IMG/VR virus record: IMGVR_UViG_3300017719_000032
Location: 1-42,393 of that record
Reading direction: 5' to 3' (one strand)
DNA: 42,393 nucleotides
Source of the DNA: a virus
Made by a program: the position numbers and the translations under genes. This document shows positions 25,806-41,283 of the stretch, one piece after another. Within the stretch, counting starts at the first letter, position 1. Each line of letters opens with the position of its first letter. Below the pieces are notes generated by a model that was given only the letters and a program-made list of their open reading frames with translations, was not told the origin of the DNA and did no database searches.

Positions 25806-25823
25806 AAGGAACGTAGATATAAT
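25806..25823 (+). promoter_or_regulatory. AAGGAACT-type promoter for the PD-(D/E)XK nuclease
   Basis: AAGGAACG, 4 nt, TATAAT (25818-25823), 6 nt, ATG at 25830. First of eleven such sites. Confidence 0.65.
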
Positions 25824-25829
25824 TATAAT

Positions 25830-26564
25830 ATGAAGAAGCCTCCTATAACGTTTACTGAATGGAACCACACATATACTCATAATGAGACAGGTGAGAAGTT
25901 TACATCAGTTACAACTATACTAGGCAAGTATAAAAAACCGTTTGATTCTGATGGTGCTGCTACAAGAGTAGCAAAAAGAGAGGGAGTTTCAAAGGAAATG
26001 GTTTTAGAGATGTGGGAGAAAGAAAAAAATAAGGCTTGTGATAGGGGTACGAGTTTGCATAAGCTTCTTGAGGACTATATTACTGTAGGTGAGCAGGTTG
26101 ATGATTATGGTTGGCTCTATAAGACATATGATAGATGTGCAGAGTATAATGTAGATAGGTATAAAAAGGTTCTTTGTGAACAATTGCTATGGAATGAAGA
26201 GCTTAAAGTGTCTGGTCTTGCTGATCTAATATATGAGCATAAGGATGGAACGTTTACTGTAGGAGACTTTAAGACTAATAAAAGGTATCGATTCAGCTCT
26301 GACTACAATGAGTGGATGTTACCACCTCTAGATCATTTAACTGTGTGTGAGCATTCAACATATACAATGCAGTTATCTATATATGCTTGGTTGTATGAGC
26401 AACTTACAGGTAAGAAATGTCGTAAGCTAGTTATATACTACTTAAAGGGTGATAGGTTTGTAGCTCATCATGGAAACTATATGAAAGCTGAGGTAGAGAA
26501 TCTATTGAAAGACTTTAATGCAGCTAGAGAGGCAGCAGAGTTAGAGGTATCTATCAAGAAATAG
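25830..26564 (+). CDS. PD-(D/E)XK exonuclease, Cas4/RecB-like, 244 aa
   Basis: Nuclease of the PD-(D/E)XK superfamily: His77 in GTSLHKLLE, an acidic residue at Asp132 within VSGLADLIYE, the catalytic FTVGDFKTNKR (Asp146, Lys148), and the QxxxY motif MQLSIYAWLYE (Gln181, Tyr185) typical of RecB/Cas4/AddB-type enzymes. These digest or end-process linear dsDNA or ssDNA. No iron-sulphur cysteine cluster is present. An early promoter places it in the early/middle programme, so a role in recombination or host-DNA degradation is more likely than in packaging. Which phage exonuclease it corresponds to cannot be told. Confidence 0.75.
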   Translation: MKKPPITFTEWNHTYTHNETGEKFTSVTTILGKYKKPFDSDGAATRVAKREGVSKEMVLEMWEKEKNKACDRGTSLHKLLEDYITVGEQVDDYGWLYKTYDRCAEYNVDRYKKVLCEQLLWNEELKVSGLADLIYEHKDGTFTVGDFKTNKRYRFSSDYNEWMLPPLDHLTVCEHSTYTMQLSIYAWLYEQLTGKKCRKLVIYYLKGDRFVAHHGNYMKAEVENLLKDFNAAREAAELEVSIKK

Positions 26565-26601
26565 TTGAAAAGTAGATCTATTTGATTATATATTATATCA
26601 T
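26565..26601 (+). promoter_or_regulatory. Sigma70-like promoter for the gene at 26602
   Basis: TTGAAA (26565-26570), 18-nt spacer, TATATT (26589-26594), 7 nt, ATG at 26602. Confidence 0.5.
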
Positions 26602-26805
26602 ATGAAGAAGACTACTCTGATTAGTAAGTTTGAAAAGAAGATAGATGAAGCACTTGATGGTCTTTACCAAGCACGTGATGTAATATCTGCAGCAGATGAC
26701 TATGAGCTTGATGAGCTTGTTAATGAAGTTGTTGAAGACTTGGAGTGTGAGATTGCTGATAAGGTTGCAACTATTATTTCAGCAGTTGATAATGCACTTG
26801 AATAG
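26602..26805 (+). CDS. Small acidic helical protein, 67 aa
   Basis: A 67-residue, strongly acidic protein with two predicted helices (FEKKIDEALDGLYQARDVIS and ELVNEVVEDLECEIADKVAT). No family recognised. Start follows a leaderless sigma70-type promoter. The 3' end contains the -35 element of the next promoter. A host-takeover or regulatory small protein is plausible from position only. Confidence 0.6.
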   Translation: MKKTTLISKFEKKIDEALDGLYQARDVISAADDYELDELVNEVVEDLECEIADKVATIISAVDNALE

Positions 26806-26819
26806 TCTATAATACTTTT
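26786..26819 (+). promoter_or_regulatory. Sigma70-like promoter for the RmlD-like gene
   Basis: TTGATA (26786-26791, inside the upstream gene), 16-nt spacer, TATAAT (26808-26813), 6 nt, ATG at 26820. Confidence 0.6.
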
Positions 26820-27668
26820 ATGAAGAAAGTTCTTATCTTGGGTAATGGTTATGTTGGTGGGTATGTTTATGCACAGCTTTCAAGGAATCCAGAGCTTGAT
26901 GTATCATTAGAGTCTAAGGCAGTACTTGACTATACTGATGAGTATTACCTTCGTGACTATATGAAGGAGCAACGCTTTGATTATCTTATCAATGCACAAG
27001 GATTTACTGGTAGACCAAATGTAGATCAAGCAGAGCAAGAGAAGGAAGCTTGTTGGAAGTATAATGTTCAAGTACCTCTAATGTTCAATACTGTATGTAG
27101 AGAGCTGCATGTACAGCCTATTCACATTACTTCAGGATGTATCTTTACAGGTTATGATAAAGCTTGGTCTGAAGTAGATGAGCCTAACTTCGGAGTGTTT
27201 AATCCTACTTCATCATTCTACTCTACAAGTAAACACGCCTTTGAGTCTGTAAGTGATAATGGTATCACTATTCGTATACGGATGCCTTTCTGTGATACGC
27301 TTAATGATAGGTCATATCTTACAAAGATTCATAAGTATGACAATCTCATTAGTGCTGTTAACTCAAAGACATATATTCCAGAGCTTGTTGACTTCATTGA
27401 GCAGATTATTGAGGATGAGAGAAAGGGTCATGATGTGGTTCACTTTACAAACTCAGAGCCATTAGAGACAGCTGGTGTTGTTGAGCTTATGAAAGAGTAT
27501 GAGTTAGAGAATCCTAACTGGTCTTGGGTTGATATTGAGGAGCTTGATCTCGCTGCTGGAAGATCTAACTGCGTGCTTGATACCACAAAGGTTAAAGAAG
27601 AGTATGGCTTTATTCAGTTAACAGAGACTGAAGCTTTGAGAAAGGCTCTCAAAGCAATTGCTTCTTGA
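26820..27668 (+). CDS. RmlD-like NAD(P)-dependent sugar-nucleotide reductase, 282 aa
   Basis: Extended SDR-type Rossmann enzyme. N-terminal LGNGYVGGY is the nucleotide-binding 'GxxGxxG' turn; ITSGCIFTGYDK holds the structural 'S(T)DyVFdG' position and FYSTSKHAFE contributes the catalytic Tyr134 and Lys138 (YxxxK). This is the layout of dTDP-4-dehydrorhamnose reductases (RmlD/RfbD), which reduce a 4-keto-6-deoxysugar nucleotide. With the 4,6-dehydratase at 30233 it could make an activated deoxysugar for host or virion glycans. The 4-keto substrate is inferred; a 3,5-epimerase is not in the window. Confidence 0.7.
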   Translation: MKKVLILGNGYVGGYVYAQLSRNPELDVSLESKAVLDYTDEYYLRDYMKEQRFDYLINAQGFTGRPNVDQAEQEKEACWKYNVQVPLMFNTVCRELHVQPIHITSGCIFTGYDKAWSEVDEPNFGVFNPTSSFYSTSKHAFESVSDNGITIRIRMPFCDTLNDRSYLTKIHKYDNLISAVNSKTYIPELVDFIEQIIEDERKGHDVVHFTNSEPLETAGVVELMKEYELENPNWSWVDIEELDLAAGRSNCVLDTTKVKEEYGFIQLTETEALRKALKAIAS

Positions 27669-27675
27669 TTAAATA
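27668..27675 (+). promoter_or_regulatory. Possible late-type box ATTAAATA for the hub-like gene
   Basis: ATTAAATA, 7 nt, ATG at 27683. It begins in the stop codon of the RmlD-like gene. Confidence 0.35.
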
Positions 27676-27682
27676 AGTATGC

Positions 27683-29608
27683 ATGAGCTTTAACATACTA
27701 GGTGACCATGGTCTCGATATTAACATTACCATTCTCAAAATGGTTAGACGTCTGGAGGGCGATCAACTAGTTGAAAAAATAGAACAAGCTATTCCTATAG
27801 ATGTTAGTGCTATCTCTTCTCTAAAGATAGATGATAATCTAATGCGCTCAGGTATGTTTGGTGCTATTGAGATTAATAACCAAACAAGTATTCTTGATCA
27901 ACTTGGTATTGCAACTAAGAGCTCTGATGATTTATATATTAGTGTTCTAATTAAAGATGATTCTCTGGTGAAGGCTGGGCTTAAACCTCATCAAGCAAAG
28001 ATTGACTTCCTTGGTCTAATAGAAAAGACTGTAACTGGTTCAGCTAATTTTCAAGATAATGTTATTATATTTCAATTCGAAGAAGCATTTATTGCAGAAA
28101 TGCGTCATACATCATGGGAGAACTTTCTTAGAGATAGTCAACTATCAGAGGATCAATCAGTAACTGACTTAGTTAAGAACTATTATGATATAGTTTGGAA
28201 GAAGAAAAATGATACTATTGCTAGTGATGCTGTAATTGTAGATCTTAGTGAAGGTGAACCTATTAACAAGTTACCTATTGTTGTAAATACAAAACCCAAA
28301 GCACCAGATAAAGAGGAAAGCTTTTTTGATGTATTTAAGAGAACTCTTAATCGAACAAATGCTGCTGGAGTAGCAACTTTCAACGTTGGCTTTGGGGATG
28401 TATCTGGTAGAACTTCTGGTGATAGAAAGCTTTTACCTTCATTTAGATTTACTAATGGTGTTGATGGTAAGAGAGTAATGAAATTCAAACCTTACTATAC
28501 TGCTAAGCATAGAGAGTTTATTGAGGAAATGAGACTAGCAGGTATACAAGGATCTAAAATAAACTTCAGCGATATATATACTGAAAAATTTACGTGTGGA
28601 CCTTTAGCCCAAATTAAAGGAGCATTAGATCCTAATACAAACTGGCATAATTCAATTGAGGGTGAGACTATAACTAGACCAGATGTTGGAACTTTACGTA
28701 AGGAAATATGGACAAACTTCCTAGTAATTAATGCGAAGGAGAGTGATTTTGATGAAGATTTTGACATTACTGACTCAAACTCAGAACCACATTTGTATGC
28801 AGATGTTGTTAAGAGCTTTATTGAGGATGAATTAGCACTCAAGGGTGAAGCAGGTGTAAATTTGCCTTTAATAGATGCTGATCGTCAACCTAAACAATAT
28901 AAATTTGCACCAGAGGGTGATACAAAAAATCCTGCTGAAGCAATTGTAAATGAATTAAACAATAGTATTAAACTTAGCTTTGTAAATGTTAACGAGAAAA
29001 TATCCTTTTCTTGTAAGGGTGCAATTTATAGAACACCAGGTAAATTTATTTGGGTAGAAAGATCAGGTAACTCAGAGTCACTTTTAGAGAAGATTTGGTA
29101 TGTTAATGCTGTTGAGCATAGTATAATAGATGGTGAATATCAAACAGAGATTATTGCTAATCGTGTGTTTGGTGAGAATACTCTAAGAGCATTTGAACTG
29201 TTAGCAGAGGATGCAAGGGTGGCTATTAACGGAACCTTAAATGATCGAAGTGAACGTCTAAAGGCAAGGTTAGAGGCTGAAGCAGAAATAGAGGCTTTAG
29301 AAACAGAATCAGCTCCTCCAGAACCGAAGAAATATTATTTTGCAGAAGAGGTAGAAGTGTATAAGGAAAGTGATGAGTATAAGGATCTATCAGCTCAAGA
29401 GCAGGCTGAATGGAATAAAGAAAATGATCCAGCTGAAATAAAGAAACAAAATATTGAGACAGCAGAGTTACAAAAGATTTTGCGTGAGAGAGATCCAGAA
29501 GGATACACAGCAGCTTTCCGACAACGCAATATTATCGGTGAATCAGGTCAAAACCTTTTTAAAGAATATATTGAAGCTAACCGAGCTGGTGTTGAGGTTA
29601 CGAATTAG
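27683..29608 (+). CDS. Baseplate hub-like protein, 641 aa
   Basis: Long late-type protein inside an otherwise early gene block. The portion around residues 430-500 reads SFSCKGAIYRTPGKFIWVER, then SLLEKIWYVNAVEHSIIDGEYQTEIIANRV: in gp27/gpD-type hub proteins the second barrel is followed by 'RxPGxfixI...g...yxV..vxHxfxxgxYxnxixxv'. N-terminal LKIDDNLMRSGMFGAIEIN and QTSILDQLGI fit the first hub barrel. The 100 C-terminal residues are charged and coiled (EAEAEIEALETES). A hub-type structural protein is the best reading; T4 gp27 (391 aa) is shorter, so this may be an alternative hub or a wedge protein. Confidence 0.5.
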   Translation: MSFNILGDHGLDINITILKMVRRLEGDQLVEKIEQAIPIDVSAISSLKIDDNLMRSGMFGAIEINNQTSILDQLGIATKSSDDLYISVLIKDDSLVKAGLKPHQAKIDFLGLIEKTVTGSANFQDNVIIFQFEEAFIAEMRHTSWENFLRDSQLSEDQSVTDLVKNYYDIVWKKKNDTIASDAVIVDLSEGEPINKLPIVVNTKPKAPDKEESFFDVFKRTLNRTNAAGVATFNVGFGDVSGRTSGDRKLLPSFRFTNGVDGKRVMKFKPYYTAKHREFIEEMRLAGIQGSKINFSDIYTEKFTCGPLAQIKGALDPNTNWHNSIEGETITRPDVGTLRKEIWTNFLVINAKESDFDEDFDITDSNSEPHLYADVVKSFIEDELALKGEAGVNLPLIDADRQPKQYKFAPEGDTKNPAEAIVNELNNSIKLSFVNVNEKISFSCKGAIYRTPGKFIWVERSGNSESLLEKIWYVNAVEHSIIDGEYQTEIIANRVFGENTLRAFELLAEDARVAINGTLNDRSERLKARLEAEAEIEALETESAPPEPKKYYFAEEVEVYKESDEYKDLSAQEQAEWNKENDPAEIKKQNIETAELQKILRERDPEGYTAAFRQRNIIGESGQNLFKEYIEANRAGVEVTN

Positions 29609-29628
29609 AACCTCTATATAATTAATAG

Positions 29629-29663
29629 TTGATTTCCACATTACCATACATTAATATATATGT
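29629..29663 (+). promoter_or_regulatory. Sigma70-like promoter for the cytidylyltransferase-like gene
   Basis: TTGATT (29629-29634), 17-nt spacer, TAATAT (29652-29657), 6 nt, ATG at 29664. All distances are canonical if +1 is the A of the ATG. Confidence 0.6.
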
Positions 29664-30236
29664 ATGTATAACCCTTTAGCTGACTCACATAAGAGTACTG
29701 TCTATAAAAAGCTTAAGTCTGTTAAGCCTCATAAGGATGTAGTTGCATTTACAGCAGGTAACTTTGATATCATTCATCCGGGCTATACAGCTACCTTTGA
29801 AGAGGCTAAGAGACATTGTGATAAGTTCATTGTCTTCTTGCATGGTGACCCTTCTGCTACGCGTAATACTAAATATAAGCCTGTAGTACCTTATTATGAT
29901 CGTTACAAGATGCTTATGTCTATTAGTCATATTGATGAGGTCTATATGTATCAGACAGAGGATGAACTCTTACATCTTATGAAGACCTTTGATCTTGATG
30001 TGCGCATCTTAGGAGAGGATTACCTTAATAAGTACTTCACTGGTGGTGATCTTGGTCATGAGGTTATTTATACTACACGTTCTCATGAGTGGAGTACTAC
30101 TAAGTTTAAGAATCGCATTACAGCCATGACTATGATTCAGAATGAGAAGCTGCGTGATAGGGTATTAGCTTTACTCAATGATGAAGATACTTGTGAGGAC
30201 ATACTCAATGGAGACTTTACACAATTAGAGAAATGA
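29664..30236 (+). CDS. Nucleotidyltransferase of the RfaE/TagD (cytidylyltransferase) type, HxGH altered, 190 aa
   Basis: The fold is clear: VVAFTAGNFDIIHPGYTATFEEAKR at residues 26-50 is the 'GxFDxxHxGHxxxLxxAk' motif of cytidylyltransferases; then FIVFLHGDPS, PVVPYYDRYKMLMSISHIDEV ('R...l..ihxVDeV') and a C-terminal STTKFKNRI in place of the 'TSTTxIxxRI' motif. The second His of HxGH is Tyr41 here, a key change in the nucleotide-binding site. It would activate a sugar phosphate (CDP or ADP). It precedes the 4,6-dehydratase with a 4-nt overlap, so both are made from one mRNA. Activity is uncertain because of the altered motif. Confidence 0.75.
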   Translation: MYNPLADSHKSTVYKKLKSVKPHKDVVAFTAGNFDIIHPGYTATFEEAKRHCDKFIVFLHGDPSATRNTKYKPVVPYYDRYKMLMSISHIDEVYMYQTEDELLHLMKTFDLDVRILGEDYLNKYFTGGDLGHEVIYTTRSHEWSTTKFKNRITAMTMIQNEKLRDRVLALLNDEDTCEDILNGDFTQLEK

Positions 30237-31168: not shown

Positions 31169-31651
31169 ATACTTTAGAATAAGCTCTTCATCAGTAAGAG
31201 CACCTTCTTCACTACCCTCTTCATCAACTGTTTCATCTAGACCTTCTTCATACTCTTCATAGTATGAGTAGATGTCATCAGAGTCAGCTTCATAACTTAC
31301 AGCTGTTGTACCAGAGGATGTATGAATTACTTCATACTTTTGTTTAATATCAGAGATGATTAACTTCTTAAGTAACTGAGCTTCTGTATCAGTCTTAGCT
31401 CTCTCCAATAAGCTCTTGACTTCATTACTAGTAAACTTACCTTTAAGATCTAAAATGGGATCATCAAATAGGCCCCAAATATGTATTGCTAAGTACTTCT
31501 TTGTAATATTAGCACAGTCTCTAATAACATAATAGGCAGCTTTCTTCTTTATTTCTACACCAGTATCTGGTTTATCAGCTGCTCTAGCTGCAGAGCCATA
31601 CAGCTTGGCAATTTGTTGAGTACTATTTTCTAGTATTACTTCTTCAAACAT
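31160..31651 (-). CDS. Hypothetical late protein with acidic tail, 163 aa
   Basis: N-terminal 100 residues are mixed and helical (IKKKAAYYVIRDCANITKKY, then KFTSNEVKSLLERAKTD); the C-terminus is very acidic (SYYEEYEEGLDETVDEEGSEEG). No family recognised. A CATAAATA box lies 5 nt from the ATG, so it is late, probably virion-associated. It converges with the RmlB-like gene. Confidence 0.65.
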   Translation of the reverse strand: MFEEVILENSTQQIAKLYGSAARAADKPDTGVEIKKKAAYYVIRDCANITKKYLAIHIWGLFDDPILDLKGKFTSNEVKSLLERAKTDTEAQLLKKLIISDIKQKYEVIHTSSGTTAVSYEADSDDIYSYYEEYEEGLDETVDEEGSEEGALTDEELILKYLF

Positions 31652-32681: not shown

Positions 32682-32699
32682 AAGGAACTACGATATAAT
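32682..32699 (+). promoter_or_regulatory. AAGGAACT promoter for the gene at 32706
   Basis: AAGGAACT (32682-32689), ACGA (4 nt), TATAAT (32694-32699), 6 nt, ATG at 32706. Confidence 0.75.
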
Positions 32700-32705: not shown

Positions 32706-32897
32706 ATGCCAAGAGCTAAAACATTTCCTAGAAAACCGTTTGTATTCGGTAAGTATATTGTAGAATACAAGGAGGAAGCTAAAAGTCCTGCTAATTTTTT
32801 AAAGGAAGAACTCAATACGGAGGCTGAAGCTGAAGCTGCAGCTGAGCGGCTAAAGGAACTCGGTTATAATAAGGTTGAGGTTAAGAAGATTGGATAA
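32706..32897 (+). CDS. Small basic/charged protein, 63 aa
   Basis: Basic N-terminus (PRAKTFPRKPF), a beta strand VFGKYIVEYKEE, then a helix EAEAEAAAERLKELGYNKVEV that looks like a short alpha/beta unit ('tEaEAexaaerLkelGyxxVxV') seen in small phage proteins that resemble SPOR-like or sporulation-type folds only loosely. No family named. Its stop overlaps the next ATG by one base, so both are co-translated. Confidence 0.55.
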   Translation: MPRAKTFPRKPFVFGKYIVEYKEEAKSPANFLKEELNTEAEAEAAAERLKELGYNKVEVKKIG

Positions 32898-33352
32898 TGA
32901 TTATACTAGAACCATCAGTTGGAGTTAAGAAAAAGACGGGAATCAACTTTGATATATTATCAGATATATTAACGCTTGTATTTGAACGAAACCATAAGCG
33001 TGATTTAAATATCTATGCAAAGGTTCATCTAAGTAGAGTACCAGATACATCTCTATGCGAGGCAATTAGTAATACACATTACTTAATTAAGTTAGATCAA
33101 ACAGCAAAGCAAACTAAGAAGTTTGTATTTAGCTCTCTATTGCATGAGTTGAGGCATTGCTTCCAGAATCATATTTGGAGCTACTGGCCTGACTCAACAA
33201 AGTTTAAGACATATACTGAGTATTTTAGATCTAAAGAAGAGGTTGATGCTCGTAAAGCAGAGAGGCTAACTCGAGAGATTATTAAAATGTATGATATGCA
33301 TTTAGCTTTTAACGAGAAGTTCCGTAAGGTTGGACTAAATAAACTTGGATGA
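32897..33352 (+). CDS. HExxH protein, putative zinc metallopeptidase, 151 aa
   Basis: LLHELRHCFQ at residues 81-90 contains the zinc-binding HExxH (His83, Glu84, His87); the segment YFRSKEEVDARKAERL at 109-124 offers Glu114/Glu115/Asp117 as a third ligand about 30 residues later, as in gluzincins ('HExxHxxxx...ExxAdxxA'). The Asp/Ala-rich second helix resembles the IrrE/ImmA and phage minimal metalloprotease style. The small size leaves only a minimal catalytic core. If active, it may cleave a host regulator or remodel the envelope; the function is not known. Stop overlaps the next gene by 4 nt. Confidence 0.6.
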   Translation: MIILEPSVGVKKKTGINFDILSDILTLVFERNHKRDLNIYAKVHLSRVPDTSLCEAISNTHYLIKLDQTAKQTKKFVFSSLLHELRHCFQNHIWSYWPDSTKFKTYTEYFRSKEEVDARKAERLTREIIKMYDMHLAFNEKFRKVGLNKLG

Positions 33353-33612
33353 AATATATTCATAGAAAAATATTTCCATCTCCTATGAATAAATCTGATG
33401 GCATTTTAACCCAGTTATGGTATAATTACAATAAAGAAACAAGACTAATATCAATAGAAGACTTTACAGTGCATTTTGTAATAGATAATAGAGTAGGTAA
33501 GAATGTTGGAGAGTATATGATCTCTAACGATTCTCTATATACAAAAATGGTAAAGGAAAGTTTTCAAGAGGTAACTCAAATACTAAAAAACGAATATGGA
33601 AGCAACGATTAA
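33349..33612 (+). CDS. Hypothetical protein, 87 aa
   Basis: ATGA overlap with the HExxH gene. Basic N-terminus (MKYIHRKIFPSPMNKSDG), then a strand-rich middle (TRLISIEDFTVHFVIDN) and a helix ESFQEVTQILKNEY. No motif recognised. Followed by an overlapping reading frame at 33596. Confidence 0.55.
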   Translation: MKYIHRKIFPSPMNKSDGILTQLWYNYNKETRLISIEDFTVHFVIDNRVGKNVGEYMISNDSLYTKMVKESFQEVTQILKNEYGSND

Positions 33613-33784
33613 CGCATTTAAATTTATTTTAAACAAGCATCTAGATCTTATCGAAGTTTATGATGATGCTAAAACATCAAGACCTTTTGCAACGATTAAG
33701 GTGGAGCATAGTATTAGTGAAAAGGATTTTCATTTTGAAATATCTGATTGGTATATGAACCATTCTAGTAACAGTGGTTTTTAA
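33596..33784 (+). CDS. Small hypothetical protein, 62 aa
   Basis: Overlaps the previous gene by 17 nt. Helical N-terminus (MEATINAFKFILNKHLDLIE), strands FATIKVEHS and DFHFEISDWYM. No family recognised. It is the last gene before the structured 33791-33880 region. Confidence 0.5.
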   Translation: MEATINAFKFILNKHLDLIEVYDDAKTSRPFATIKVEHSISEKDFHFEISDWYMNHSSNSGF

Positions 33785-33907: not shown

Positions 33908-34087
33908 ATGAACTTTATACAGTTACCGAAGTTTAATACCAATCTTTGCATTGGTGATATGGTTATTATTAACGAGGGTGTTGGTATGATTATTAACATT
34001 AAAGGTACTGAACTAACATTAACTGACAATAGTCTACGTTGGACTATTTACATTAATGACATACAAACATTTGAGAGAGTTACATAA
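33908..34087 (+). CDS. Small SH3/KOW-like protein, 59 aa
   Basis: A 59-codon frame. LCIGDMVIINEGVGMIINIKG at residues 13-33 gives the 'GDxVxixxGxGxIxxIxG' pattern of SH3-barrel/KOW-like small proteins, followed by strands LTLTD, LRWTIYI and the end TFERVT. Such folds bind RNA, DNA or protein. No ribosomal identity. The TAA stop overlaps the AAGGAACT element at 34086. Confidence 0.5.
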   Translation: MNFIQLPKFNTNLCIGDMVIINEGVGMIINIKGTELTLTDNSLRWTIYINDIQTFERVT

Positions 34088-34103
34088 GGAACTTTGATAT
34101 AAT
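34086..34103 (+). promoter_or_regulatory. AAGGAACT promoter for the gene at 34110
   Basis: AAGGAACT (34086-34093), TTGA, TATAAT (34098-34103), 6 nt, ATG at 34110. Overlaps the upstream stop codon. Confidence 0.75.
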
Positions 34104-34109
34104 AAGAGT

Positions 34110-34328
34110 ATGAAGATTAAAGGTGCTGATGACCTCCCTACGAAAAAAGATGTATGGGGTCCTACATTTGCTAAAGGTAAGATTCGAATTGTATGGAGTC
34201 AGACTAGAGGAGGCCTAGCAACATTTGTTTCTGGTAGGATGGAAGGTGAGTTGCATGACAGTGAAGAAGATGCAATTAAATGGTTGAGAGAGGTTGGTGT
34301 GGAAGAGGAAAGAATTAATCTGTTATAA
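34110..34328 (+). CDS. Small hypothetical protein, 72 aa
   Basis: MKIKGADDLP then a beta segment KIRIVWSQTRGGLATFVSGR and a helix SEEDAIKWLREVGVEEERIN. No family recognised, but strand-helix order suggests a compact alpha/beta fold. Behind its own AAGGAACT promoter, and its stop overlaps the next one. Confidence 0.6.
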   Translation: MKIKGADDLPTKKDVWGPTFAKGKIRIVWSQTRGGLATFVSGRMEGELHDSEEDAIKWLREVGVEEERINLL

Positions 34329-34344
34329 GGAACTTAGTTATAAT
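34327..34344 (+). promoter_or_regulatory. AAGGAACT promoter for the gene at 34351
   Basis: AAGGAACT (34327-34334), TAGT, TATAAT (34339-34344), 6 nt, ATG at 34351. The upstream TAA is at 34326-34328. Confidence 0.75.
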
Positions 34345-34350: not shown

Positions 34351-34548
34351 ATGAAAGAGAGAGTTGAGAGTTTAGTTGAGTCAGGTGAGCATGTGTTCTT
34401 AGATATCCGCCCTAGGCGTGATGGTAAGATGTGGTCTGAAGAAGGAGTCATTAAGAGACTTGATGCTAATGGTTGGTTTCAGATTGAGTTTATGGGCTCT
34501 ACTAATGGTTGGCATGTTAATCAGATCGTAAACATTTCTACTGATTAA
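34351..34548 (+). CDS. Small hypothetical protein, 65 aa
   Basis: I start at the ATG at 34351, placed 6 nt after the -10 box; an upstream extension would read through the promoter. Segments GEHVFLDIRPRRDGKMW, GVIKRLDANGWFQIEFM and a final HVNQIVNIS suggest a small all-beta (SH3-like) protein. No family recognised. Confidence 0.6.
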   Translation: MKERVESLVESGEHVFLDIRPRRDGKMWSEEGVIKRLDANGWFQIEFMGSTNGWHVNQIVNISTD

Positions 34549-34556: not shown

Positions 34557-34751
34557 ATGAATGCATCTGGAATAACTTTTGAGTTATATCATAAAATTAA
34601 TAATCTAACTGATGAGTGGGTGTTAAAGGCATTCATGAACTCGTTTGTTAATGTAGTTGAGGATATTAAGAAGAAAGATTCTATAGAGATAAATCGAGTA
34701 GTTGATTACCTCTATACACAAATGCTCAATAGTGTTGAGCAAGACAATTAA
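34557..34751 (+). CDS. Small helical hypothetical protein, 64 aa
   Basis: Mostly helical: FELYHKINNLTDEWVLKAFM, FVNVVEDIKKKDSIEINRVV, DYLYTQMLNSVEQ. No family recognised. Its TAA stop overlaps the AAGGAACT element at 34750, so it is immediately followed by the endolysin promoter. Confidence 0.55.
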   Translation: MNASGITFELYHKINNLTDEWVLKAFMNSFVNVVEDIKKKDSIEINRVVDYLYTQMLNSVEQDN

Positions 34752-34767
34752 GGAACTCCGATAGAAT
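34750..34767 (+). promoter_or_regulatory. AAGGAACT promoter for the endolysin
   Basis: AAGGAACT (34750-34757), CCGA, TAGAAT (34762-34767), 6 nt, ATG at 34774. Confidence 0.65.
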
Positions 34768-34773: not shown

Positions 34774-35436
34774 ATGATAAAGATGGTTGTTGTAGGAGCT
34801 GCATCGATGGCAGGAGTAGTTCATTATTGTAAACCTGCTGAAGGTGTACAAGGTGCTCCTATTAAGTTAATTGAGGTACCTGTTAAAGTGGTAGAGTATA
34901 TTCAAGTACCTGTTGAGGTACCTAAAATAGTAGAAACATATTATGCTCAACCTATTTTAGTAAAGCCTAACATTGAAGATTACCCATCAGCAGATTATGA
35001 TATAGTTATGATTAGTGGGGTTAAGTTCTTTGAAGGCTTTAAACCTAAACGCTATAAGTGTTGTGCTGGTATACCTACTATTGGATATGGTTGTACTGAT
35101 AAGCGTATTGTATCGAAAGGTAGAATTGATGAGCTAACTGCTAATAGGTTGCTTGTAGATGAACTTACAGATACAAAAGAGAAGGTTAAAGCATATGTTA
35201 AGGTACCTCTTACTGAGAATCAGCTCAATGCTCTTACTTCCTTTGCATTTAATTGTGGGATGACTAACCTTAAGAAGTTAGTTAATGGTCAGGATAGACT
35301 TAACAATGGTAATTATGAAAGTGTAGAGCGCCTTCTACCGATGTATCGTAAGGCAGGTGGTAAGGTACGTGAAGGGTTAGTTAAGAGACGTTCCTGGGAG
35401 CTTGGCCTCTGGAAAGGTGAAACTCAAGTATTCTAA
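34774..35436 (+). CDS. T4-type endolysin (GH24), E-8-C-5-T triad, N-terminal hydrophobic region, 220 aa
   Basis: Muramidase of glycoside hydrolase family 24 that cuts the peptidoglycan glycan chain. The core is FFEGFKPKRYKCCAGIPTIGYGCT: Glu87, Cys96 (8 residues later) and Thr102 (5 later) form the E-8aa-C-5aa-T triad, with Cys where T4 lysozyme has Asp20; some phage endolysins use either residue. Later NQLNALTSFAFNCG and YRKAGGKVREGLVKRRSWE are conserved GH24 segments. The first 20 residues (VVVGAASMAGVV) are weakly hydrophobic and Gly/Ala-rich, like a signal-arrest-release anchor, then a Val/Pro-rich linker follows. Next gene is a small TM protein (holin candidate). Confidence 0.8.
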   Translation: MIKMVVVGAASMAGVVHYCKPAEGVQGAPIKLIEVPVKVVEYIQVPVEVPKIVETYYAQPILVKPNIEDYPSADYDIVMISGVKFFEGFKPKRYKCCAGIPTIGYGCTDKRIVSKGRIDELTANRLLVDELTDTKEKVKAYVKVPLTENQLNALTSFAFNCGMTNLKKLVNGQDRLNNGNYESVERLLPMYRKAGGKVREGLVKRRSWELGLWKGETQVF

Positions 35437-35603: not shown

Positions 35604-35621
35604 AAGGAACTCCGATATAAT
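35604..35621 (+). promoter_or_regulatory. AAGGAACT promoter for the DUF932 gene (with leader)
   Basis: AAGGAACT (35604-35611), CCGA, TATAAT (35616-35621); the ATG at 35655 is 33 nt downstream with a purine-rich AAGAGGAAG leader, so this mRNA has an untranslated region. Confidence 0.75.
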
Positions 35622-35654: not shown

Positions 35655-36488
35655 ATGGGATTTTTTAGAGAAATAAACGGACTTGAAGAAGTTGAGCAAT
35701 TTGAGACAAAGAAAGTATCTATTCAAGATACAAATGGCAGGTCAATTCCTGGTGTATTTTCTTTGCAGCGAACAGATACTAATAAGCATCTCTCTGTAGT
35801 AAAGGAATCTTATCGACCTATTCAGATGGATGAGATGTTTGAGATTATTGATAAGGCATCAACAGAAATTGGTAATATTGAGCACACTGGTTGGGCTGAA
35901 TCAAGAGCTGGTCGCAAGATGGTGCTTCGATCTCGCTTGCTATCTGATATAGATTTAGGAGGTGATATTATTCAACCTCATTTCTATACTGTTATTGATA
36001 ATACGGGTATGGGTTCTAATAAGTCAATTGCTTCTACCCTACGAGTTGCTTGTGATAATGCAATGCATCTTATCGATACGGAAGAGGCTATTGCTAGAAC
36101 TTTAGGAGTTAGGCATGCTTTAACCTTTGATGGGAAGATTGAAGCAATGGTTGACAATATCAGAAGTAACGTTAATACTACTATCAAGTTTGGTGAGGTA
36201 GCTAATAAGTTGCGAATTGAAAAGTTTAGTAGAGAAGATATGGTTAAGTTAACAGGTGAACTTATTCCAGTAACAGATAAGGATTCTACTAAGCGGATTA
36301 ATAAACGTGAGAAGCTGGTTGAATTGTTTACTAATGGACGAGGTAATGTTGGTGAGAGTAAATGGGATGCTCTTAATGCAGTAACAGAGTATGAGACTCA
36401 TACAGGTAAGCAATCTACAGAGAAGTTCTTACGCTCATTCAATTCCAATACTATCTCACAGAGAGCTAGTAAGCTGCTCGTTGCATAA
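35655..36488 (+). CDS. DUF932-family phage protein, 277 aa
   Basis: Matches the DUF932 layout ('phage/plasmid-like protein'): N-terminal NKHLSVVKESYRPIQMDEMF, middle AGRKMVLRSRLL, FYTVIDNTGMGSNKSIAST and a C-terminal WDALNAVTEYETHTGKQSTE. These proteins are widespread in phages and plasmids with no proven enzyme activity. It has a 33-nt leader after the AAGGAACT promoter, unlike its neighbours, which suggests higher or differently controlled translation. Confidence 0.6.
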   Translation: MGFFREINGLEEVEQFETKKVSIQDTNGRSIPGVFSLQRTDTNKHLSVVKESYRPIQMDEMFEIIDKASTEIGNIEHTGWAESRAGRKMVLRSRLLSDIDLGGDIIQPHFYTVIDNTGMGSNKSIASTLRVACDNAMHLIDTEEAIARTLGVRHALTFDGKIEAMVDNIRSNVNTTIKFGEVANKLRIEKFSREDMVKLTGELIPVTDKDSTKRINKREKLVELFTNGRGNVGESKWDALNAVTEYETHTGKQSTEKFLRSFNSNTISQRASKLLVA

Positions 36489-36504
36489 GGAACTCTAATA
36501 TAAT
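36487..36504 (+). promoter_or_regulatory. AAGGAACT promoter for the zinc-ribbon gene
   Basis: AAGGAACT (36487-36494), CTAA, TATAAT (36499-36504), 6 nt, ATG at 36511. Starts in the upstream TAA. Confidence 0.75.
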
Positions 36505-36510
36505 AAGAGT

Positions 36511-36762
36511 ATGAAGATAGTATATTGTGTATGTGGAAGTCTGGTTAGACCATCTCGTGCTGAGTTAGGCTTTACTGACTGTGTGAGATGTGCTCATGAG
36601 AATCCAGTAGAGCCTCCTAAAGGTCGTATGGTATATGACGGTAAGGTAGGTGCTCAGATTGAGATTATGTCTGCTGAGACTTGGAGAGAGAATAAGGATA
36701 GGTTCTGTCCTAAGGGTGCTCGTAGCGCTGTTAAGAACTTCTCTAAGAATATATCTGCTTAA
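36511..36762 (+). CDS. Small zinc-ribbon protein, 83 aa
   Basis: YCVCGS and CVRCA give two cysteine pairs (C6, C8 and C24, C27) spaced about 15 apart, a treble-clef or zinc-ribbon arrangement like DksA/TraR-type or RNA-polymerase-binding phage proteins. The remainder is basic with a conserved GFTDCVRC. A transcription-modulating role is possible; none shown. Behind an AAGGAACT promoter, and its stop overlaps the next promoter. Confidence 0.6.
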   Translation: MKIVYCVCGSLVRPSRAELGFTDCVRCAHENPVEPPKGRMVYDGKVGAQIEIMSAETWRENKDRFCPKGARSAVKNFSKNISA

Positions 36763-36778
36763 GGAACTCCGATATAAT
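36761..36778 (+). promoter_or_regulatory. AAGGAACT promoter for the gene at 36784
   Basis: AAGGAACT (36761-36768), CCGA, TATAAT (36773-36778), 5 nt, ATG at 36784. The upstream TAA is 36760-36762. Confidence 0.75.
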
Positions 36779-36783
36779 TAGTT

Positions 36784-37038
36784 ATGGCAGCACAGAAAAA
36801 GGTTCAAGCTAGACGAATGGCTCAAGGCCATTATATGAAGGATGCATTCTTCTTTATGCAAGACTTGCAAGAGGCTCTAATGGAGTATGAGGTAGAAGAG
36901 TTTACTCAGACTGATGCTCGATATGCTCAGCGTCTTATTGAAGAGCTTGATGAGATGAGACCTTTGATTCAGAAGCTTGCTAATAACTTGGAAGCTAACT
37001 CACCTGCAGATATCATAACTAACTGGAAAGACCTCTAA
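36784..37038 (+). CDS. Small helical protein, 84 aa
   Basis: Basic N-terminus (MAAQKKVQARRMAQG), then amphipathic helices FFFMQDLQEALMEYEVEEFT and ARYAQRLIEELDEMRPLIQK. No family recognised; a coiled-coil binding protein is likely. Its TAA overlaps the ATG of the lipoprotein gene by one base. Confidence 0.55.
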   Translation: MAAQKKVQARRMAQGHYMKDAFFFMQDLQEALMEYEVEEFTQTDARYAQRLIEELDEMRPLIQKLANNLEANSPADIITNWKDL

Positions 37039-37244
37039 TGAAATACGTAATGCTAATACCTGTTTGTATGCTTATTGCCTCATGCGGTAGTTCTCATACA
37101 AAAGAAGAAATCAAAACTGAATACAAAGGTGGATACTATTTGAAAGGTACCGTTTGGGGTGATGATAAGATTAAGGAGATTCATAACAACAGTAACAACA
37201 AAACTTGGAGCAATCTTAAAAAGGAACTCCGATATAATAAATAA
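37038..37244 (+). CDS. Small lipoprotein, 68 aa
   Basis: Signal peptide MKYVMLIPVCMLIASC with lipobox LIAS-C16, so cleavage and lipid attachment at Cys16 are expected, leaving a 53-residue envelope protein. C-terminus NLKKELRYNK is coded by the same bases as the next AAGGAACT promoter (37221-37238). This could be an exclusion (superinfection immunity) or spanin-type lipoprotein; no partner gene was identified. The retained promoter within coding DNA limits its sequence. Confidence 0.6.
   Translation: MKYVMLIPVCMLIASCGSSHTKEEIKTEYKGGYYLKGTVWGDDKIKEIHNNSNNKTWSNLKKELRYNK
37221..37238 (+). promoter_or_regulatory. AAGGAACT promoter for the gene at 37246, inside the lipoprotein gene
   Basis: AAGGAACT (37221-37228), CCGA, TATAAT (37233-37238), 7 nt, ATG at 37246. 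Confidence 0.75.
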
Positions 37245-37245
37245 G

Positions 37246-37515
37246 ATGAGACCAACAAGAGAAGATTTAATTGAAATGGGATACCTTAAACCTGGAGATA
37301 CTCTAGCTAAGGCTCCTAAACGTGAACGTAAGATATTTCTTGATACTGTCGATCTTGAGTATGCTGAACGTCATGGCTTGACTAATCAAGAGATGAAAGA
37401 CTTCAAGAAAGATATGATAATCGAAGAAGAGATCATTCGTGACCATCATATCTTAGCTGCTCAGGATAAGAGCGAGACTTATAACTCACCTCAAGCTCAC
37501 TACTTCGGATGGTAA
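37246..37515 (+). CDS. Small charged protein, 89 aa
   Basis: Start chosen at 37246 (MRPTREDLIEMGYLKPGDTL), 7 nt after the -10 box; a longer frame starting upstream would read through the promoter. Rich in Lys/Glu; helix LEYAERHGLTNQEMKDFKKD. No family recognised. Stop overlaps the next frame by 7 nt. Confidence 0.6.
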   Translation: MRPTREDLIEMGYLKPGDTLAKAPKRERKIFLDTVDLEYAERHGLTNQEMKDFKKDMIIEEEIIRDHHILAAQDKSETYNSPQAHYFGW

Positions 37516-37859
37516 TTAAATCATTTGACTTTAAGACTAAAGTACGAGTAGGGGATTGCGCTCCTTCGTACTCTAGGAGTTGGGAGCTTGATGAGACTGA
37601 TGGAGTTTATACTCTAAAGATGGATGGCTTTGATGATGAGATCTTAGAAGAGAATGATCGAGAGCTATACTACTTCATTACTAAGGGTAAGAAGAAACCT
37701 ATCAAGGTTCTTGAGAGTAGAAGCTTCAAGCAATGGGTTTACGCTCAATGGCAATCAGGAGATGTTTGGGGATATGCCCCGTACCTTAGCAAGTTCAAGA
37801 GAGATATTCTCGTCTTTGGTAATGCTAAATGGACGGAGATAGATGCGTTTGGAGATTGA
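37509..37859 (+). CDS. Hypothetical protein, 116 aa
   Basis: Overlaps the previous stop. Strand-rich N-terminus (FDFKTKVRVGDCAPSYSRSW, GVYTLKMDGFDDEI) and an aromatic C-terminus (QWVYAQWQSGDVWGYAPYLS). No family recognised. Its 3' end precedes the AAGGAACT promoter of the RadA-like gene. Confidence 0.55.
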   Translation: MVIKSFDFKTKVRVGDCAPSYSRSWELDETDGVYTLKMDGFDDEILEENDRELYYFITKGKKKPIKVLESRSFKQWVYAQWQSGDVWGYAPYLSKFKRDILVFGNAKWTEIDAFGD

Positions 37860-37865
37860 CTTCAA

Positions 37866-37883
37866 AAGGAACTCTCTTATAAT
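37866..37883 (+). promoter_or_regulatory. AAGGAACT promoter for the RadA-like operon (with leader)
   Basis: AAGGAACT (37866-37873), CTCT, TATAAT (37878-37883); ATG at 37909 is 25 nt after the box with a purine-rich AGAGAGAGA leader. Confidence 0.75.
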
Positions 37884-37908
37884 TATAGTAGAGAGAGATA
37901 AAACATAA

Positions 37909-38817
37909 ATGGAATTAAATTACAAGAAAACAAGTTTCACTAAGGTAAGTGAATTAGAGATACCTGCTAGCTTCTTTAATAGAATGAAGACAGGTTCAGA
38001 TATGGATAAGGTTTTTGGTGAGGGTATCTTACCAGGAGCAGCAACTACAGTTACAGCAGTTGCAGGAGGAGGCAAGACTACCTTCTTGTTAGAGTTGATG
38101 GAGAAGTTAGATGCAAATGGTTACAAGACAGCATATGCATCAGGAGAAGAGAGTGTACATATGCTAGCTTATACTTGTAAGAGGCTAAATGTTACTAATG
38201 TTGCTGTAGCTAATGAGACAGATGTAGATAGGTTAGCTGCTGCTATGGAGAATCTAGATGCAATTGTTGTAGATAGTTTTCCTTCTTTAACCTCTACCAA
38301 GAAGATGAATACAAGAGAGCGAGAGAGCTATGCAGTAACTACTCTTACAAAGAAAGCTAAAGAGACTAACTGTGCAATCTTCTTTATTATGCATCTAACT
38401 AAAGCAGGTGTGTTGAAGGGTTCAACCTTAGTACCTCATATGGTTGATGTTAACATTAAGATTGAGAGAGATGCTGATGATGATAGGTTGAGAGTGTTTG
38501 ATACTTATAAGAATAGGTTTGGTGCAACTGGTGAAGTAGAAGCTGAGCTAGGTCGTGAAGGGTTTAGTGGGTTTGGTGAAAAGAAGAAACCCCTTACAGA
38601 TTCTGAGAAACTTGAGAAGGGAGTGCTTGAGATGGATCCACCTACCATTACTGAAGATGCTGTAATGGATACATTCAATATCTCAAAGAGCAAAGCATAT
38701 GTAACTCTTAGAAGTTTAGTAGAGAAGAATAAACTTAAGAAGTTTGGAAGAGGTAAAAGTGCTGTTTGGAAGAGAGTGTTAGTTGATAAACCTAAAGTAG
38801 CAGCTATACTTGTATAG
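37909..38817 (+). CDS. RadA/Sms-like RecA-fold ATPase with C-terminal winged helix, 302 aa
   Basis: RecA-fold ATPase: Walker A AVAGGGKT (50-57), YASGEES strand end (77-83), Walker B DAIVVDSFPS (117-126), MHLTKAGVLKGS loop (161-172) and the RadA signature KNRFG (201-205), which bacterial RadA/Sms uses for DNA branch migration. The N-terminal zinc finger and C-terminal Lon-like domain of cellular RadA are absent; instead residues 245-290 form a winged-helix (TEDAVMDTFNISKSKAYVTL, then VEKNKLKKFGRGKSAVWKR). It may remodel recombination intermediates or regulate a partner. The TAG stop abuts the next ATG, so it is coupled to the amidohydrolase. Confidence 0.75.
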   Translation: MELNYKKTSFTKVSELEIPASFFNRMKTGSDMDKVFGEGILPGAATTVTAVAGGGKTTFLLELMEKLDANGYKTAYASGEESVHMLAYTCKRLNVTNVAVANETDVDRLAAAMENLDAIVVDSFPSLTSTKKMNTRERESYAVTTLTKKAKETNCAIFFIMHLTKAGVLKGSTLVPHMVDVNIKIERDADDDRLRVFDTYKNRFGATGEVEAELGREGFSGFGEKKKPLTDSEKLEKGVLEMDPPTITEDAVMDTFNISKSKAYVTLRSLVEKNKLKKFGRGKSAVWKRVLVDKPKVAAILV

Positions 38818-39789
38818 ATGAAAGTTGACATTCATACTAACTTAGAATGGTTCCCGACTTCGAAGAGCTCTGATACTAGAGTGCATGCCTCTGTTCAGCA
38901 GATGGCAGACTTCTTAAATGTAAATGAAGTAACAGTTAACTTCTGCCTCTATCCTAGAGATGGTTATCATATGCTTGAGAAGTTAGCTAAGATTACTCCT
39001 CACATTAAGCATATTGGTGTGCAAGTACTCATGGGTGCAGAAGCAGCTGATGCTACAGCAATTGAGAGTGTTATGCTTGATGTAAATAATAGCATAAGAA
39101 CATTTAAGAATGGTGGTTTGTGTCATGGTATCAAGATAGCCTCTCATAGAGGTTGGTGGAATAGAAAAGGTGAAGTAGACTCAGGATTTGATTATGGTAG
39201 AGGAGATTGTAGGCAGCTTACTAAATGGTTAAGGTCTATGCCTGATGGTTCTATTTGTTCTATGCATATGCAAGGTGATCCTATTCAGAACTCTGCTTCT
39301 ATTCCTACTACTGTAGGTATGTATGCATATAAGAACCCTAACATTAAGTTCATTATCAATCATGCTGGTGACTTTGGTCAAGGTGGTCTTAGTAATAAAC
39401 CTAAAAAGTATAAGACAGTAACTAAGAAGGGTGAGGTTAACTTCTTCCCTGCTTATAGATATGCTCACTCACAAGGCCTTATTCATACTGCAGTAGCTAT
39501 GGCTAACACTATGCATAATGTTATGATTGATACTTCTGTCTATACTCCTTTCAAAGGTAAGATGATGGGTGAGTGTAGGTCATGGGCAATTGGTAGTGAT
39601 TATCCATTCCAGATCAAAGCTGATAATGATAAGCTTAAGAGTACTTCTAAGATGATGCTTAATGAAGAGAAGAAGTTCATTAAGGACTTAGGAGAAGAGA
39701 GAGTCAAGCAAGCACATAAAGATGCTTATCATTGGTTGACTGCTGATATTGATACTCTTATTAAAGAGAGTGAATGGTATGAAGAATAA
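38818..39789 (+). CDS. Amidohydrolase-like TIM-barrel metal hydrolase, 323 aa
   Basis: Starts right after the RadA-like stop. Motifs of the amidohydrolase superfamily in order: KVDIHTN (His6; the second metal ligand position is Asn8), GIKIASH (Lys107, His110), SMHMQGD (His150), IINHAGD (His182) and GSDYPF (Asp261). These supply metal ligands and the catalytic Asp of amidohydrolase-2-type enzymes, which cut amide or ester bonds or decarboxylate. HxN instead of HxH suggests a single-metal site. Stop overlaps the amidoligase start by 11 nt. The substrate is unknown; adjacency to an amidoligase suggests opposite or sequential handling of the same amide bond. Confidence 0.6.
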   Translation: MKVDIHTNLEWFPTSKSSDTRVHASVQQMADFLNVNEVTVNFCLYPRDGYHMLEKLAKITPHIKHIGVQVLMGAEAADATAIESVMLDVNNSIRTFKNGGLCHGIKIASHRGWWNRKGEVDSGFDYGRGDCRQLTKWLRSMPDGSICSMHMQGDPIQNSASIPTTVGMYAYKNPNIKFIINHAGDFGQGGLSNKPKKYKTVTKKGEVNFFPAYRYAHSQGLIHTAVAMANTMHNVMIDTSVYTPFKGKMMGECRSWAIGSDYPFQIKADNDKLKSTSKMMLNEEKKFIKDLGEERVKQAHKDAYHWLTADIDTLIKESEWYEE

Positions 39790-40672
39790 AATGACATTTG
39801 GATTAGAACTAGAACTACCTGATGTAGATACGAATGTAGAGATACCAGCTCATATTGGTAGCTTTGATATGAAAGACTTCACTATTGCTAACAGTGATGG
39901 GCTTGCTAATGATCCTAAGAAGAAGTACTTTTTAATTGGTTCAGAGGTCAATATGACTCCTACTGATAGCATTGATCAGATGATTGATAACGTAGAGAGC
40001 CTCTACTCTCTTGTTAGTACAAAGACTAATCATAAGTCTAACCTACATGTTCATATTGGTGTAGAGGGCCTTGTAGATGACTTTGAGAAGCTCCATAAGC
40101 TGCATGCATATACATACAAGCATGAGAAGTATATAATGAGTAAGGTTGATGCTCTTCCAGCATCTACTACTGATAAGATGGCAGAAAGAATTAAGCACTT
40201 ATTGAAGTCACATCAGTATACATATGCAAAGAGTTATCAGGAGAGAATCTTAGATGCTACAACTTGTAAAGATATAGGAGATGCTCATCAACCGATTAGG
40301 AAGAGAGATGGTAAGAGACTTACACACTTACACAAGAGGGCTGGAATTAATCTAAGATCTATCTTTAGTCGTGGTGCAATTGAGTTCAGACACTTCTTTG
40401 GTACAGATGACTTTGACCAATATAGAGATGCACTTGAGTGGTGTAAGTTGTATGTAGAGAATGCTATCGGAGATCAAAAGCATCCTAATAAACTACTTGC
40501 AAGTAGAGAGTGGAACTTCCCTAAGATGGCTCCTTGGAATGAAGAGTTACAAATTATGTGGGAGTATACTAACCTTGAGCATAATAAGCGAGGAGAAGTA
40601 AAAGACAGAATCAACCAATTACTAAATGAGAATAAAATCAACAGACAACATCTTGGTAGTATGTTCAGGTAA
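39779..40672 (+). CDS. Amidoligase (GS-fold, Amidoligase_2 family) protein, 297 aa
   Basis: ATP-dependent COOH-NH2 ligase of the glutamine-synthetase fold: N-terminal FGLELEL (Glu10, Glu12), central LHVHIG (His90, His92), EKYIMSKVDAL, and AINLRS-type INLRSIFSRGAIEFRHFFGT (Arg193, Glu202, Arg204), the ATP/metal residues of the Amidoligase_2 family. Phage members of this family have been proposed (Iyer and colleagues) to make peptide tags or modify cell-wall peptides. The start could also be the ATG at 39791, inside the overlap with the previous gene. The next gene begins within its 3' end (47-nt overlap). Confidence 0.65.
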   Translation: MKNKMTFGLELELPDVDTNVEIPAHIGSFDMKDFTIANSDGLANDPKKKYFLIGSEVNMTPTDSIDQMIDNVESLYSLVSTKTNHKSNLHVHIGVEGLVDDFEKLHKLHAYTYKHEKYIMSKVDALPASTTDKMAERIKHLLKSHQYTYAKSYQERILDATTCKDIGDAHQPIRKRDGKRLTHLHKRAGINLRSIFSRGAIEFRHFFGTDDFDQYRDALEWCKLYVENAIGDQKHPNKLLASREWNFPKMAPWNEELQIMWEYTNLEHNKRGEVKDRINQLLNENKINRQHLGSMFR

Positions 40673-41069
40673 CATTAACCGTTCAGCTATAGCAGAGTAT
40701 CTATTTAGAGCAGAAGGCTTTACTAGTGTAGACTCATGTGGTCTAGGTAAGACAGCAGCTAAAGGTTTACCTATGGCAAAAAAGATGAGAGCTCTTTTTA
40801 AAGAAGAGTTCAATCATACTAGCAAGCAGATTAATCAAGAGTTAGTTGATTGGGCTGATGTTGTCTTATGCATGGGACCAGGTCAGGTAAGGAAAACTAA
40901 TAAGTTATTCAATACAGATAAGGCAGAGCTCTTTGGAGGTAAGAAGGTAGATGATCCACACTTTACTAATAATCATAAGGAGGTTGCTGACTATATTGAT
41001 GTAGTCATTAAACACTACAAGTTGAGTGGTGATGTGCAGATGGTTGATAATATTGATGATTTCATCTAA
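40626..41069 (+). CDS. Low-molecular-weight protein tyrosine phosphatase, 147 aa
   Basis: LMW-PTP: catalytic P-loop VCSGNINRSAIAE (Cys13-X5-Arg19, then Ser20), the general-acid loop VDDPHF (Asp110) and a helix-rich fold of the normal size (about 150 aa). Cellular and bacterial enzymes remove phosphate from phosphotyrosine in polysaccharide-export kinases. Its gene overlaps the amidoligase gene, so it belongs to the same operon. A phage copy could reverse host Tyr phosphorylation or act on a phosphorylated small molecule. The P-loop has Ser-Gly-Asn-Ile-Asn in place of the common Leu-Gly-Asn-Ile-Cys. Confidence 0.8.
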   Translation: MRIKSTDNILVVCSGNINRSAIAEYLFRAEGFTSVDSCGLGKTAAKGLPMAKKMRALFKEEFNHTSKQINQELVDWADVVLCMGPGQVRKTNKLFNTDKAELFGGKKVDDPHFTNNHKEVADYIDVVIKHYKLSGDVQMVDNIDDFI

Positions 41070-41086
41070 AGGAACTCCGATATAAT
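41069..41086 (+). promoter_or_regulatory. AAGGAACT promoter for the gene at 41092
   Basis: AAGGAACT (41069-41076), CCGA, TATAAT (41081-41086), 5 nt, ATG at 41092. Abuts the phosphatase stop. Confidence 0.75.
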
Positions 41087-41091
41087 TAGGT

Positions 41092-41283
41092 ATGGAGAAA
41101 AAGAATAATTATACAGTAGTATGGTCTTACAAAGGACTTGAGCGTAGAGTTGTTGTTAAGGCAGAGACGAGAGCAGATGCTGAGGATGTAGTCTACGAGA
41201 AGAATAAGCATCTCTTTGATCATGATGCCATTCATGGTACAGAGAATTGTGAGATTAAGTCTGTACGTAAGAACCTTGGATAG
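41092..41283 (+). CDS. Small hypothetical protein, 63 aa
   Basis: Strand-helix-strand: YTVVWSYKGLERRVVVKAE, then TRADAEDVVYEKNKHLF and CEIKSVRKN. The TAG stop precedes the next ATG by 1 nt. Similar short beta-alpha-beta proteins are frequent in T4-like phages; no function recognised. Confidence 0.6.
   Translation: MEKKNNYTVVWSYKGLERRVVVKAETRADAEDVVYEKNKHLFDHDAIHGTENCEIKSVRKNLG

Follow-up and report, generated by a model that had tools for sequence, protein, structure and literature searches.

Investigation of the virus record IMGVR_UViG_3300017719_000032 (42,393 nucleotides (nt) from IMG/VR; this whole stretch is the window), a fragment of an uncultured T4-like myophage, revealed repeated copies of an element in which the box AAGGAACT stands exactly 4 bases before TATAAT, and this element appears to be a kind of promoter without earlier description, in which the box replaces the -35. 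That the motif is part of a promoter and not a ribosome-binding site is strongly supported because of its fixed spacing, its co-orientation with genes, its conservation at orthologues, its positions before transfer RNA (tRNA) and transfer-messenger RNA (tmRNA) genes and the absence of a conserved -35; on these grounds the promoter reading of an earlier annotation made from the letters of the window (the original prediction) is likewise strongly supported. Our favoured reading, given a probability of roughly 0.6, is a phage-family-specific promoter that is read through sigma appropriation by a phage-encoded protein at AAGGAACT and that yields leaderless messages. The element appears to belong to a large and diverse family of uncultured T4-like phages, which seem to use it for many genes of early type.

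Copies, spacing and lineage variants of the element

Allowing at most one mismatch, 12 copies of the element were detected in the window, against an expected number of 0.10 (standard deviation 0.33, maximum 2) in 100 dinucleotide shuffles, and the reversed pattern gave no match. All 12 are on the + strand, with none in positions 1-25805 and none on the - strand, which carries the late and structural genes; the original prediction, which had named equal occurrence on the late-gene strand or inside genes without a following start codon as evidence against itself, withstood both tests, and the only copy inside a gene is that at 32853, which may be a real promoter or a chance match. This copy had been overlooked, so that the eleven copies first counted, all with correct coordinates, become twelve. 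The copies are as follows.

25806-25823, + strand: element promoter with the sequence AAGGAACG-taga-TATAAT; 6 nt separate it from the ATG of 25830-26564 (PHROG exonuclease)
32682-32699, + strand: element promoter with the sequence AAGGAACT-acga-TATAAT; 6 nt separate it from the ATG of 32706-32897
32853-32870, + strand: twelfth, exact copy, within gene 32706-32897 (where it encodes KELGYN), 26 nt before the ATG of 32897-33352
34086-34103, + strand: element promoter; 6 nt separate it from the ATG of 34110-34328, and it overlaps the upstream stop
34327-34344, + strand: element promoter; 6 nt separate it from the ATG of 34351-34548, and it overlaps the upstream stop
34750-34767, + strand: element promoter whose -10 reads TAGAAT; 6 nt separate it from the ATG of 34774-35436 (endolysin), and it overlaps the upstream stop
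35604-35621, + strand: element promoter; 33 nt separate it from the ATG of 35655-36488 (phrog_1221)
36487-36504, + strand: element promoter; 6 nt separate it from the ATG of 36511-36762, and it overlaps the upstream stop
36761-36778, + strand: element promoter; 5 nt separate it from the ATG of 36784-37038, and it overlaps the upstream stop
37221-37238, + strand: element promoter; 7 nt separate it from the ATG of 37246-37515
37866-37883, + strand: element promoter; 25 nt separate it from the ATG of helicase-like gene 37909-38817, and a TTGACT stands 16 nt ahead of its TATAAT
41069-41086, + strand: element promoter; 5 nt separate it from the ATG of 41092-41283, and it abuts the upstream stop

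The form AAGGAACTN4TATAAT is exact in ten copies (nine of those first listed and 32853), the exceptions being 25806, where the box ends in ACG, and 34750; the 4-nt gap, the single TAGAAT and the single box ending in G were thus described correctly at the outset. The same holds for the nine copies whose TATAAT ends 5-7 nt before the ATG, the distance being 25-33 nt in the other three (33 nt at 35604, 25 nt at 37866 and 26 nt at 32853), and for the at least six upstream genes said to end at an element, six being found (34086, 34327, 34750, 36487, 36761 and 41069). The location of the box, first given as about -25 to -18, is corrected to -24 to -17, counting TATAAT as -12 to -7.

The search of related phages that had been proposed recovered a box at fixed spacing with letters that differ by lineage. 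IMG/VR contigs are fragments, the window itself being only 42 kb, and their open reading frames (ORFs) were called mechanically. Over 11 motif-positive related IMG/VR records, GGAAC-N5-TATAAT occurs 161 times, compared with 0-7 times at any other gap from 0 to 30, and CGAAC-N5-TATAAT 48 times, compared with 0-2 at other gaps; TATAAT is nearly invariant in the element sites. An assumption-free count, in which every TATAAT was taken and the commonest hexamer at its -11 to -6 recorded, gave AGGAAC in most motif-positive records (with GGGAAC in addition in record G017), ACGAAC in G002 and G008, and both ACGAAC and ATGAAC in G013, while no such hexamer was enriched before TATAAT in G009, G010, G011 and G025. 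In G014 the hexamer AAAAAC takes up the box position in six copies and could represent one more variant, as could AAACAC or AAAAAC at the same position in two distant records (L427 and L428) that have the 62-amino-acid protein family discussed below.

Promoter function and relation to the -35

Conservation at orthologous genes was clearest for the helicase-like gene at 37909, where 36 of 42 relatives have retained the element; protein identity to the window protein is roughly 40-58% for most of these relatives, and the ATG follows at 6-67 nt, constituting a phylogenetic footprint. The orthologue of gene 35655-36488 in the related record G003 also has the element, approximately 28 nt upstream. 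Regarding RNA genes, the element was found in G003 upstream of the tmRNA (13 nt from its 5' end) and of tRNA-Arg (8 nt), in G001 upstream of tRNA-Met (12 nt) and in G002 upstream of tRNA genes (17 and 19 nt), positions at which a role as a translation signal is not expected. The AAGGA of the box does resemble a Shine-Dalgarno core and the block stands just before the ATG in most copies, which could suggest a Shine-Dalgarno sequence or another control element acting on the mRNA; however, AAGGA ends about 20 nt before the ATG in most copies and much further away in others, the distance to the ATG varies, some copies stand ahead of tRNA and tmRNA genes, and Shine-Dalgarno sequences are missing from the lineage, making a translation signal very improbable. 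The ribosome-binding-site form of this reading was ruled out by the variable ATG distance and the RNA genes. A repeated DNA element serving recombination, homing or replication, as might be proposed for a multicopy sequence that is similar across contigs, is scarcely credible: only the promoter positions are conserved, with nothing conserved upstream of the box, and the copies are always codirectional in the close relatives of the window and tied to start codons and RNA genes.

In the aligned element sites nothing was conserved upstream of the box except adjoining A/T, and no conserved -35 was detected. TTG at a spacer of 16 was present in 7% of element sites compared with 31% of element-less TATAAT sequences lying 5-7 nt before an ATG, and a five-of-six match to the -35 at this spacer in 3% compared with 14% of element-less ATG-proximal TATAAT, so the sites do not have the composition of canonical sigma-70 promoters; a -35-like box accompanies the element at 37866 and at a few other sites. 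The same phages use TTGAA-N16-TATAAT for other genes, and orthologues exchange promoter class: a distant helicase relative (L215) has a TTGAC-type promoter, two others (L206 and L207) have a TTGA box plus GGGAA at the same spacing, and the exonuclease gene, which in the window follows the copy at 25806, is preceded in G003 by TTGAAA without a correctly spaced element. Because orthologues switch class in this way, the box appears to replace the -35 and, as far as sequence comparison can indicate, to do its work. In G003 the element occurs mostly in a region of early type (small ORFans, tRNAs and tmRNA), a label that derives from gene content only, and TTGAA-N16/17-TATAAT precedes the core replication genes gp32 (at about 115 kb), uvsX (about 122.7 kb) and gp55 (about 131 kb). 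The early/middle label of the original prediction would likewise derive from gene content only.

Several further observations were made around individual copies. The tmRNA under the element promoter in G003 is of the one-piece type (L129 15777-16193, - strand; RF00023, 132 bits; tag AANKVVDFVLPQAEPQFALAA); a two-piece tmRNA was reported in the marine phage Melnitz (PMC9004378). A 151-amino-acid HELRH (metalloprotease-like) protein ends in LKELG-stop, encoded by the element AAGGAACTAGGTTAA of the next gene (G003 44451-44468 and G001 13754-13771), and this stretch is under two constraints in both records. At 24915, 25117, 31981 and 43150 of G003 (- strand), element promoters are followed by AATAGNATAAAGNAGTTGAAC-like short sequences with no adjacent ATG, possibly a small RNA or leader family. 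In five loci (L011, L026, L029, L064 and L121) both flanks of one copy are alike, with AGTGGAA.. before and GATGTA..GTAATGTAGT-like sequence after it, forming a longer conserved block around the element.

Leaderless messages and late promoters

An ORF-opening ATG 4-8 nt after TATAAT was present at 153 of 257 element sites compared with 113 of 2,340 TATAAT sequences without the element. Among the 257 sites, 150 have the ATG at 5-7 nt and 94 at exactly 6 nt, and the 152 start codons comprised 149 ATG, three TTG and no GTG. Shine-Dalgarno sequences showed little or no enrichment in the window and 16 related records (0-9% of genes, compared with 1-4% in shuffled sequence), the corresponding values being 47% of genes in phage HTVC008M and 23% in P-SSM4, which suggests that the host of this phage group does not rely on them. 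TA-like boxes approximately 10-12 bp before the start mark leaderless genes in bacteria (PMC3160421), and the element genes share with these TA-led genes a TATAAT about 10-12 bp before the start codon (the -10 ending about 6 nt before it), the ATG and the lack of a Shine-Dalgarno sequence; they differ in having an extra, phage-specific box that is common to a whole phage regulon. Because of the 5-7 nt spacing, the near-exclusive use of ATG and the lineage without Shine-Dalgarno sequences, the element genes probably give leaderless mRNAs.

T4-type late promoter matches, TATAAATA, occur separately from the element, whose sites carry TATAAT. Three were recorded in the window.

250-257, + strand: late promoter match TATAAATA, T4-type, upstream of gene 283-807
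2716-2723, + strand: late promoter match TATAAATA, T4-type, 5 nt before the ATG of ORF 2729-2866
2668-2675, - strand: late promoter match TATAAATA, T4-type; an in-frame ATG of ORF 1229-2779 follows after about 5 nt

Where such boxes precede genes in the window and related records, they are mostly 5-7 nt from the ATG; the late genes thus look leaderless too, and leaderless translation is likely to extend across several promoter classes.

Distribution of the element and the reader of the box

The T4-like affiliation of the group is indicated by tblastn matches of the window terminase to T4-like phages, by gp44 in the window and by gp43, gp32, uvsX, gp41 and gp23 in relatives. The terminase of the window matched 2,510 phage records in tblastn, none above 60% identity (38.7% for the first listed), and no megablast match to its early half was found among cultured phages. 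The related IMG/VR group is large, with at least 516 terminase relatives among at least 599 stretches; relatives retrieved via the motif itself are rich in copies, with a maximum of 36 in a record of 42.6 kb. The 18-base form AAGGAACTN4TATAATN5TATG was present in at least 119 IMG/VR stretches and a scrambled core in one, and at 103 of 115 loci with this form more than 10% of the bases were covered by proteins of this phage group. None of 12 cultured T4-like phages (P-SSM4, Syn9, P-SSM2, P-SSM7, S-PM2, T4, KVP40, HTVC008M, phiM9, OLIVR5, XG4 and C48C1) showed enrichment of the element over the reversed control, which rules these out as carriers, including P-SSM4 and Syn9, for which a putative middle promoter was reported (PMC2984593). 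The same scan also took in Pelagibacter phage Lederberg (MT647605). The consensus as a short BLAST query gave only chance-level matches in INPHARED, and a BLAST search of the tmRNA against phages, run as part of a host search, returned nothing.

Regarding bacterial and archaeal genomes, the 18-base form gave five scattered single matches in GTDB (84,980 genomes, 257 Gb), which is the chance level, although the pattern is strict, fixing both TATAAT and ATG in their spacing, and has limited power against a host regulon. This bears on the reading in which a host sigma or host regulator binds AAGGAACT beside the -10 and the phages copy a host promoter, box variants following host differences. If the small ORFans, tRNAs and tmRNA are immediate-early, only host or virion proteins would be available at that time, and no phage activator was found; but the form is frequent in viral contigs while at chance in GTDB under that strict pattern, and three records of the same phage group (G009-G011) lack the element and use TTGA-type promoters, so that we regard a host reader as rather unlikely.

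Known promoter systems were compared with the element. The MotA box, (a/t)(a/t)(a/t)TGCTTtA, is located 12 +/- 1 bp from the -10 (PMC2988021). The likeness to T4 middle promoters lies in a phage box that replaces the -35 before an excellent host-type -10, in many copies in a T4-like phage; however, AAGGAACT stands exactly 4 bp from the -10 and no MotA or AsiA domain was found in ten relatives, and membership in the MotA/AsiA class was therefore rejected. The original view that the box is neither a -35 nor a MotA box is thus supported by its position, the scan of cultured phages and the missing domains. Extended -10 (TGn) sigma-70 promoters likewise have a substitute for the -35 directly upstream of the -10, but its TG is at -15/-14 whereas conservation here covers -24 to -17, and TGn was present in only 16% of the 257 sites; the element is not of this class. 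GcrA of Caulobacter activates through sigma domain 2 rather than region 4 (PMC7403470). It is a precedent for the geometry and not a relative, and differs in requiring sites methylated to N6-methyladenine (m6A). We know of no m6A-type GcrA site in the box. The -35 box of extracytoplasmic function (ECF)/RpoE-type sigma factors shares the letters GGAAC; it lies about 16 bp from a different -10, in contrast to the 4 bp to TATAAT here. A review called early and middle transcription in cyanomyoviruses unresolved (PMC2984593), and in a study of an OM43 phage middle promoters were sought only by the MotA box, with none found (PMC9004378).

Of the readers first suggested (a phage- or host-encoded activator or an unusual sigma), a phage-encoded one is favoured because the box is family-specific and virus-specific and its third position is lineage-dependent. 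In the proposed mechanism, RNA polymerase with a sigma-70-type factor would read TATAAT as an ordinary -10, and AAGGAACT at -24 to -17 would take the place of the -35. A phage-encoded protein, made early or delivered with the virion, would most likely bind the box and dock on sigma or polymerase beside the -10, a form of sigma appropriation comparable to that of T4 MotA/AsiA but about 8 bp nearer the -10. Transcription would start about 7 nt downstream, at the A of the start codon for most copies, giving a leaderless mRNA. We hold at even odds the more specific proposal that this is a sigma appropriation of its own, in which NNGAAC-like boxes at -24 to -17 are recognised by a phage factor of novel type that contacts sigma near region 2/3 instead of region 4 and activates a leaderless regulon in a host without Shine-Dalgarno use, with box and reader diversified by lineage (AGGAAC, ACGAAC, ATGAAC, GGGAAC, possibly AAAAAC and AAACAC).

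Alternatively, a phage-encoded sigma could read box and -10 together without host sigma. The rigid 4-nt spacing suggests a single rigid recognition surface and relatives encode a gp55-type late sigma, yet the -10 is a perfect host-type TATAAT that also serves the TTGAA-N16-TATAAT promoters of the same phages, and no second gp55 homologue was detected by phmmer in G003, G006 and G007 (this search did not extend to a sigma-domain scan of every ORF); such a factor is quite improbable.

Some points weigh against the favoured phage-encoded reader. No activator was identified, and neither an AsiA nor a MotA domain (PF09010, PF09114; E<=1) was found in ten relatives, most of which are fragments and in which divergent factors could escape. 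If the promoters fire immediately after infection, a freshly made phage protein cannot be the factor and a host-made or virion-carried one is needed, and a host regulon with divergent -10 boxes would escape the GTDB pattern. The lack of Shine-Dalgarno sequences spans the whole lineage, including element-free records, and is thus not special to the element genes.

Regarding the suggestion that relatives with the motif share a candidate activator gene, two small families have the presence/absence profile expected of such a gene.

33596-33784, + strand: 62-amino-acid gene, family A3/A4, in motif-positive records and absent from four motif-negative ones; candidate marker or co-factor
26602-26805, + strand: 67-amino-acid acidic gene, family A5, with the same presence/absence profile; weaker candidate

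At 63 of 66 loci with the 62-amino-acid family the element is on the same strand, with 261 copies compared with five on the opposite strand and 12 for the control. The protein is predicted to fold into four strands and a helix (predicted local distance difference test, pLDDT, 83), and searches of PDB and BFVD with this fold gave no significant match. Both families are leads only, since any genes specific to the clade would be distributed in the same way. Holin-like, head-protease and scaffold genes, which had partial profiles, were dismissed as the activator by their functions.

For T4-like phages without MotA and AsiA, the control of early and middle genes has been described as unclear (PMC2984593; PMC9004378). 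A rigid box beside the -10 that replaces the -35 is a sharp test of a factor holding sigma from the spacer side, and the lineage-specific boxes offer naturally occurring variants of its specificity. By means of the box, uncultured members of the family can readily be identified and their transcription units annotated.

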